A DNA stretch of 64,000 nt from Simplicispira hankyongi (GTDB lineage Bacteria > Pseudomonadota > Gammaproteobacteria > Burkholderiales > Burkholderiaceae_C): assembly GCF_003570885.1 (NCBI RefSeq), contig NZ_QXJC01000003.1, forward strand, positions 62,001-126,000. The letters are read 5' to 3'. Both the position numbers and the translations under genes were made by a program. Of the stretch, positions 2,960 to 27,035 are shown piece by piece. How positions within the stretch are numbered: the first letter of the stretch is position 1; each line of letters begins with the position of its first letter. The notes beneath the pieces were generated by a model. The model saw nothing but the letters and a program-made list of their open reading frames with translations, was not told the origin of the DNA and searched no databases.

Positions 2960-2973
2960 ACGACGCGATCTAG

Positions 2974-3132
2974 TGACGTGAGTTGGAAGTAGGCTGAAAA
3001 AGTGAAAGATGTCGAAATCGGCGTCAGGCAAGGCGCAAGCCACAGCGATAGCCGGTGCTATCGCGAGGATTTGCAACGCGGCATGGCGGCGATTCTCGGC
3101 AGCTTCCTGAAACGAACTTCCAACTCACGACA
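2974..3132 (+). repeat. Long-hairpin repeat element, copy A
   Basis: This intergenic segment of about 159 bp folds on itself almost end to end. The left arm starts TGACGTGAGTTGGAAGT, and the right arm is its inverted copy with one mismatch in 17. The apex GCGATAGC-CGGT-GCTATCGC is followed by GAGGATTTGCAACGC and preceded by CAAGGCGCAA. The same apex and flanks occur at 26908-26963. CTAG borders the left end (2970-2973) and CTGG the right (3133-3136). No protein is encoded. It is probably a MITE-like or structured-RNA element. Confidence 0.7.
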
Positions 3133-3198
3133 CTGGTGGCCAGCGTACTGGCATTGCTGCGTTGCGTGGCATCATGAAATTTTGTGCAAGGCGGTCCA

Positions 3199-26814: not shown

Positions 26815-27035
26815 CTACCCCTCTAGTGCTTACCCAATAAGCGCTAGAGAGCCTCTGCACGAATCGCGTGGCAAGTGGGCGCTGCGGATCGGGATGAGCT
26901 GCAAGGCGCAAACTGCAGCGATAGCCGTAGCTATCGCGAGGATTTGCAACGCTGCAGATCGCCCGAGGCCGCAGATGCACACGGCGCGACGATTCATGCA
27001 GAGGCTCCCTAGCAGCTATAAATCCAATAGCAATC
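26815..27035 (+). repeat. Dispersed AGCGCTTAT repeat interrupted by a hairpin element
   Basis: The left part (26815-26847) reads CCCTCTAGTGCTTACCCAAT AAGCGCTAG. The right part (27009-27035) reads CTAGCAGCTATAAATCCAAT AGCAAT. Together they form one normal repeat. The 161-bp hairpin element copy B splits it at CTAG, which is present on both sides. Confidence 0.75.
26848..27008 (+). repeat. Long-hairpin repeat element, copy B
   Basis: This 161-bp element has inverted ends: AGAGCCTCTGCACGAATCG on the left and, read inverted, GGAGCCTCTGCATGAATCG on the right. The apex GCGATAGC-CGTA-GCTATCGC, the preceding CAAGGCGCAA and the following GAGGATTTGCAACGC are the same as in copy A (2974-3132). The arms are unrelated to those of copy A. 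CTAG flanks both sides, which may be a target duplication. No coding sequence is present. Confidence 0.75.

Follow-up and report, generated by a model that had tools for sequence, protein, structure and literature searches.

The usual view of MITEs is that of defective leftovers from a single parent IS, retained by their ends alone. REP/REPIN sequences are high-copy hairpins associated with RAYT transposases, and integron attC sites are recognized by structure as a folded single strand, the stem sequence being free while extrahelical bases and the conserved R/L boxes at the ends are kept. The hairpins described here, two of which lie in a stretch of 64,000 nucleotides from Simplicispira hankyongi (below, the window), are likewise present in high copy number; unlike REP/REPIN, they display no requirement for a Y1 transposase and have ends that suit DDE transposases. 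Whereas attC keeps its ends and varies its inner stem, these hairpins keep the tip and vary the ends, and since the ends differ between families, membership in the attC class is unlikely.

Among described MITEs, MITEPsy1 of Pseudomonas syringae is a 100-bp element with IS5-like ends and a 4-nt duplication of CTAG or YTAA, whose insertions have been trapped (PMC3189936). The present hairpins are, like MITEPsy1, small and non-coding with terminal repeats, and the MITEPsy1 ends (GGAAGGTCTGAAAAAGCC) resemble by eye the IS5-type ends found here; however, they are ~160 bp long and combine a common folded core with the ends of unrelated transposases, which the accessible parts of that account do not describe for MITEPsy1 (PMC3189936). 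ERIC, NEMIS/Correia, YPAL, CIR, and QMITE are also long, stable stem-loops, partly with target duplications, but a conserved tip with exchanged ends is not described for them in the accessible parts of the corresponding reports (PMC2229807, PMC10969869, PMC5896051). According to the same parts of this group of reports, the stem of QMITE2 in alphaproteobacteria is conserved and its tip diverges more, the reverse of the situation here. Open-access papers, in which sequences held in figures are unsearchable, yielded no description of the core sequence or of such a family.

The two hairpins and their arm families

The earlier note had placed two hairpins with common central motifs in the window, and both are located as it claimed (Table 1). 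The CAAGGCGCAA-gap-GCGATAGC pattern has two occurrences in the window, where 0.00 would be expected by chance, and GAGGATTTGCAACGC is matched exactly in both copies. As had also been stated, the arms pair with each other within each copy and are unrelated between the copies; both copies fold better than shuffled sequences, whether as RNA (z = -6.5 for copy 1 and -9.1 for copy 2, with 0 of 200 shuffles as stable) or as DNA (z = -8.3 and -8.2). The pairing of the arms is broken by mismatches and loops, and the same interruptions are conserved in relatives. Copy 1 begins 14 bp after a histidine kinase gene ends and is upstream of a gene for an EamA transporter; copy 2 sits between two convergent genes, one for an AI-2E transporter and the other for a phosphoenolpyruvate carboxylase. 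The flanks of copy 2 are palindromic and thus alone are no proof of target duplication. A scan of copy 1 recovered no promoter-like site, a search of Rfam 15 with copy 1 gave no match up to an E value of 5, the sole Rfam match over the whole window was a tRNA, six hairpin loci gave no Rfam match at the gathering score, and a phage search with copy 2 gave no match.

Table 1. Features of the two hairpin elements (positions in the window)
Feature	Positions	Strand	Remarks
Left target flank, copy 1	2970-2973	.	CTAG; the L249 IS630 element lies in the same CTAG context
Right flank, copy 1	3133-3136		CTGG
Copy 1, hairpin element with IS630-type ends (family B)	2974-3132	+	159 bp
Left terminal repeat, copy 1	2974-2989	+	Pairs with 3117-3132; helix 1 of alignment A2
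Right terminal repeat, copy 1	3117-3132	+	Likeness to the L249 IS630 end
Conserved folded core (apex), copy 1	3027-3084	+	Row L008 of core alignment A1; covariation
Tip stem, copy 1	3045-3052 / 3057-3064	+	
Left flank, copy 2	26844-26847	.	CTAG; 27009-27012 likewise CTAG
Copy 2, hairpin element with IS5-type ends (family A)	26848-27008	+	161 bp
Left terminal repeat, copy 2	26848-26866	+	Pairs with 26990-27008; helix 1 of alignment A3
Right terminal repeat, copy 2	26990-27008	+	Helix 1 of alignment A3
Conserved folded core (apex), copy 2	26900-26957	+	
Tip stem, copy 2	26918-26925 / 26930-26937	+	

Both hairpins are members of a large family of ~160-bp non-autonomous transposons. When up to 3 mismatches are allowed, the genome to which the window belongs (3.7 Mb in 19 contigs) holds 28 copies of the apex and no match to a reversed control pattern; 32 copies were recovered with a looser pattern. 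These copies group by common arms into family A (including copy 2), family B (including copy 1), family C, and others. Because arms are common within families, copies 1 and 2 simply belong to two families and are no proof of arms that are free in each copy. The claim that arm sequence is free while pairing is kept hence survives in that pairing persists as the arms change, and fails in that families share arms and ends; nor does the contrast that the earlier note drew with ordinary MITEs, which keep their ends, hold, as each arm family here keeps its own. Among 154 elements, the median identity between elements is 0.32 in the outer arms and 0.90 in the core, the latter being the search pattern itself. 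Four shortened copies in this genome lack the apex (L179, L186, L188, and L199), each with a distinct breakpoint, while full copies were amplified; so small a number does not establish a need for the apex.

Terminal repeats and the transposases that they resemble

As judged from sequence, a folded core of ~58 nt is combined in these elements with the ends of unrelated transposases. The terminal repeats of copy 1 match those of an IS630 element (L249), as expected of a MITE of IS630: the right repeat with its flank agrees at 24 of 26 bases, and the left repeat with its CTAG flank agrees at 21 of 26. In Acidovorax carolinensis pACP3.2, the IS630 transposase (NF033545; 259.5 bits, cut-off 100) is encoded between two family B ends that are each off by 1 base in 18, the final bases of the gene overlapping the right end. 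IS630 and hairpin ends were compared within the same genome in three cases; the closest is G498, where the IS630 end and hairpin L228 share 20 of 22 bases, and the less close ones are G142 (element L261 and hairpin L279, alike by eye) and G135 (agreement over the first 14 bases). A search for DDE_3 in 16 apex-bearing genomes gave a match in 11 and none in 5. In the genome of the window, no protein matched DDE_3 at an E value of 0.001, and thus, family B, to which copy 1 belongs, looks orphaned there. The target of IS630 is TA within CTAG; CTAG is frequent at IS630-type ends, but the rules that identified these ends required CTAG or TA, and copy 1 itself has CTAG and CTGG.

For the IS5-type ends, the counterpart is found in G025, whose 1,171-bp IS5 element has TTAA on either side, encodes a 320-residue protein (NF033581; 338 bits, cut-off 140), and at either end shares 16 of 18 bases with the local hairpin L247. 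Beyond the end (up to 17 bp), the stretches that this IS5 element has in common with hairpins L246 and L247 measure at most 11 bp (E value of at least 0.07). An origin of the hairpins as internal-deletion derivatives of the IS was therefore rejected for this pair, since they do not share the internal sequence of the parent. Three proteins of the genome of the window match PF01609, one of them in an IS5-like element (L143) that lacks the core and whose ends are similar to those of the hairpins without matching them. When flanks were called blind to their sequence, 10 of 42 GG-ended (IS5-type) elements had identical, non-palindromic 4-nt flanks, for which chance is about 1 in 256, and the other 32 did not; the 10 were CTAA (four), TTAG (two), CTGA, CGAA, TTTA, and TTTT, and the expected 4-bp YTAR-type duplication of IS5 is thus found. 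CAAG flank pairs are also present, in a selection that required equal flanks. The blind calling covered 194 elements, 30 of which had no clear ends, and misplaces palindromic CTAG ends; its TG class has identical flanks in 1 of 41 elements and its TA class in 1 of 81, so that the GG class alone is relied on here. A DDE_Tnp_1 protein occurs in 44 of 53 apex-positive and 57 of 97 apex-negative genomes (P = 0.003), 9 of the 53 being without a match.

The apex was absent from every IS5 and IS630 element read, and no autonomous element with ends matching the hairpins was recovered in the genome of the window. There, exact matches to the family C end pair at 161 bp, lie in shortened copies, or stand alone (14 places read). 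Matches to the family A end occur in 7 of 150 genomes, among which no IS carrying such an end was found; in 14 stretches flanking these ends, hairpins, shortened or degenerate copies, or lone ends were seen and no autonomous element was recognized, the lone ends without a partner being L200, L205, L209, L210, and L212. Plasmid searches with three further end types (TAC, TCA, and GAACGTG) gave no recognizable transposase, and 200 of the 373 kb of a Comamonas record, covered in four 50-kb stretches, held no autonomous copy with GAACGTG ends but one 268-bp element that has such ends and the core. In that element (L274, 23953-24221; Comamonas odontotermitis NZ_CP083452.1), the ends are GAACGTGTTTACGATC and the core is off center, which suggests a further end type. 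IS630 ends of G049 are similar to the TAC type, in a comparison that covered IS ends only. Related genomes, in which the earlier note had proposed to look for empty sites, were queried with 173 joined flanks; 8 hits crossed the joint, with certain places hit more than once. Three places were then aligned to a relative, and one of them proved to be a clean empty site.

Covariation, strand bias, and competing readings

The pairing looks to be kept by selection on the fold. The compensatory changes that the earlier note had proposed to seek were found as double changes in three alignments: A1 for the core (49 rows; 49 of 51 distinct cores from 198 counted matches, leaving out L212 and the homogenized L026), A2 for IS630-type elements (23; 22 of 25 elements plus the window copy, leaving out L028 as miscalled, L096 with misplaced ends, and the truncated L218), and A3 for IS5-type elements (12; 11 of 12 elements plus the window copy, leaving out L244 with an altered core). 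In A1, 94.7% of the cells are paired and 9 of 20 pairs are double-changed, in 64 cells. The corresponding values are 95.0%, 42 of 57, and 310 for A2 and 94.8%, 24 of 55, and 70 for A3, the structures of these two being derived by RNAalifold from the same alignments, which favors their percentages of paired cells. For each alignment, the result was reached in 0 of 500 shuffles, and the covariation of A2 is 0.621, compared with 0.187 for shuffled alignments and no more than 0.114 after sliding. Double changes affect 23 of 25 pairs in helices 2 to 4 of A2, which lie inside the terminal repeats. An asymmetric loop (columns 39 to 43 and 123 to 126 of A2), with one invariant and two near-invariant columns, is kept between the covarying helices, and loops and tip are conserved across relatives. 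The native paired fraction is 0.78 to 0.79, versus 0.22 for joined halves of different elements. A reading of the internal loop as a k-turn gave no fit.

A further line of evidence is the type of mismatch between the arms, which were aligned by sequence identity in a strand-blind manner. This test covered 73 of 85 representatives, the remaining 12 having too little pairing. On the strand read, there are 292 G-T against 100 A-C mismatches, with G-T in excess in 57 elements and A-C in 7; the inner arms alone, over all representatives, have 179 against 73, and G-A outnumbers T-C by 265 to 40. There is also a general keto excess (GG plus TT, 99; AA plus CC, 64; P = 0.008), which the G-T/A-C ratio over all representatives exceeds (odds of 1.9; P = 0.0015, an optimistic value given shared ancestry). 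The 19 IS5-type representatives have nothing beyond the general G/T excess (G-T to A-C, 65 to 37; keto-keto to amino-amino, 34 to 13). The respective ratios are 109 to 28 and 27 to 13 in the IS630-type set and 118 to 35 and 38 to 38 in the remainder, and thus, the strand signal comes from these two sets. Private changes of close copies at 93% identity or more number 24 to 19 (43 changes; P = 0.54), those at looser thresholds number 51 to 31 (P = 0.035) and 64 to 35 (P = 0.005), and all departures within 72% clusters number 155 to 60. The recent ratio differs from the overall one (24 to 19 versus 292 to 100; P = 0.012), and all of these printed P values are too small, as the representatives are related by descent. 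Because the bias is not significant among recent changes, it seems to accumulate during propagation, which points to selection rather than plain mutation bias. G-T, G-G, and G-A are among the better tolerated mismatches in DNA, as is G-U in RNA; since tolerance is alike in the two, the G-T bias does not separate RNA from single-stranded DNA. The data are best read as selection on one folded strand, although the IS5-type subset shows no extra excess. Thus, the idea of the earlier note that structure is selected looks right in view of covariation and strand bias, while the per-copy freedom of the arms does not.

We favor, with a probability of roughly 0.57, an interpretation as two-part MITE-like elements, with transposase-specific ends and a folded core and arms under selection for the fold of one strand. 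The outer 16 to 26 bp would be terminal repeats resembling the ends of the transposase that moves the element (IS630 for copy 1, IS5 for copy 2, and probably others elsewhere), and the matching ends and target flanks suggest that this transposase would work on them in trans. The inner part would consist of the ~58-nt core and of paired arms with conserved asymmetric loops, in which the statistics above support a maintenance of pairing by one-strand fold selection during propagation. The step that depends on the fold would take place when the strand is single-stranded, either as replication-fork DNA or as the element's own RNA, and would be common to the use of IS5 and IS630, whichever transposase acts. 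The ends may have been exchanged by recombination within the core, or they may have adapted to a resident transposase with subsequent compensatory change. More tentatively, and as something that we rather doubt than assert, these could be mobile folded nucleic acids that need the fold of one strand for their spread and switch transposase by swapping the outermost 16 to 26 bp, thereby parasitizing unrelated DDE transposases (at least IS5 and IS630) in at least two proteobacterial classes by way of a fold step independent of the transposase. Were spread to require the fold, cut-and-paste movement would have an unrecognized single-strand step or host factor. By keeping core and fold while its ends differ by lineage, the family could outlive any single transposase.

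These elements could instead be ordinary MITEs in which only the terminal repeats matter, both fitting one transposase, with inner pairing and core as relics of an old palindromic ancestor. The match of the hairpin ends to IS630 and IS5 elements, the partly identical target flanks, the high-copy families, and an IS5-type strand bias no greater than the general G/T excess all agree with this, and the likeness of the cores makes common descent very likely. We nevertheless consider it unlikely: the A2 helices inside the terminal repeats covary equally strongly, asymmetric loops are retained between inner helices, and recognition of double-stranded ends leaves the G-T excess of the inner arms unexplained. 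Less probable still is that quasi-palindrome correction by template switching restores pairing without selection, a form of the arm regeneration by copying that the earlier note had raised. In L026 (G000:C18, near 35056), a portion of the left core half repeats the right one in reverse complement, and the tip at G102:C195:3271 is homogenized in the same way; together with these tips, the near-perfect arms of L042, L064, and L219 would fit such a process. The two tips suggest that template switching occurs, though not as the rule, as a general process would erase the asymmetric core and the internal loops, which persist across families, and would not favor G-T over A-C on one strand.

A role in host transcripts, whereby structure would be selected at insertion sites as a terminator, message stabilizer, or RNase III site, appears improbable to a high degree. 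Among 148 insertion contexts, defined by a simple open-frame rule with both neighbors within 500 bp, convergent sites outnumber divergent ones by 48 to 26 (P = 0.014), and in 54 of the 85 cases with an upstream gene directed toward the element, the stop codon of that gene is no more than 60 bp away, as such a role would have it. Against it, the folded strand is sense in 37 and antisense in 37 tandem gene pairs, copy 1 has no terminator-like site, and the Rfam searches above recovered no match to the hairpins. An informal look at replication strand, using the listed positions in G317, G529, and G004 and an assumed origin, found no consistent trend. Mobilization as REP/REPIN-like hairpins by a single-strand Y1 (RAYT) transposase is disfavored and carries very little probability. 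It would account for long, high-copy hairpins with strand-specific features, but G025, for all its copies, has no Y1 match at an E value of 0.001, at least 10 apex-positive genomes are without one (among the 20 listed of 38 lacking a match), and both ends and target flanks suit DDE transposases.

Occurrence across genomes and variant copies

The looser apex pattern found matches in 53 of the 150 genomes scanned from the same bacterial family, including that of the window, with the highest copy number (115) in G025; the control pattern over these 150 genomes gave 0 among the matches listed. A scan of named genomes recovered at least 114 stretches with the core, some from bins named to phylum or class only, and the named genera belong mainly to Comamonadaceae or other Burkholderiales. 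With a covariance model (R1) built from the 49 cores, matches with E values of 0.01 or less were obtained in 48 of 398 genomes drawn from the whole phylum, again including that of the window; these matches reach other families of the order, the class outside the order, and the phylum outside the class, and their copy numbers are lower bounds, as up to 14 candidates were scored per genome. The model offers a means of annotating a widespread repeat that has no Rfam match here. On the alphaproteobacterial plasmid pMM593 of Martelella, the core is present with unrelated arms.

Several individual loci deserve mention. Two adjacent hairpins lie on pMM593 (L196, 3000-3180), the second of which apparently has, by eye, a variant core in reverse orientation. 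Genes between neighboring copies at L006, L066, and L067 look ordinary; at L006 (G000:C1:1403885-1405829), three cores share a 2-kb stretch, the ends of one being IS5-type and those of the other two IS630-type, around a putative metalloprotease gene and a putative dcd gene (both named by eye). The so-called plasmid NZ_CP083452.1 contains a ribosomal protein operon (L277; 180001-230000) and may be part of a chromosome or a chromid. Finally, family f39, of the same phylum but outside the class, has a diverged core in several genera with genomes of ~1 to 3 Mb, and the ends of its copies L225, L226, and L233 are IS5-like by eye.
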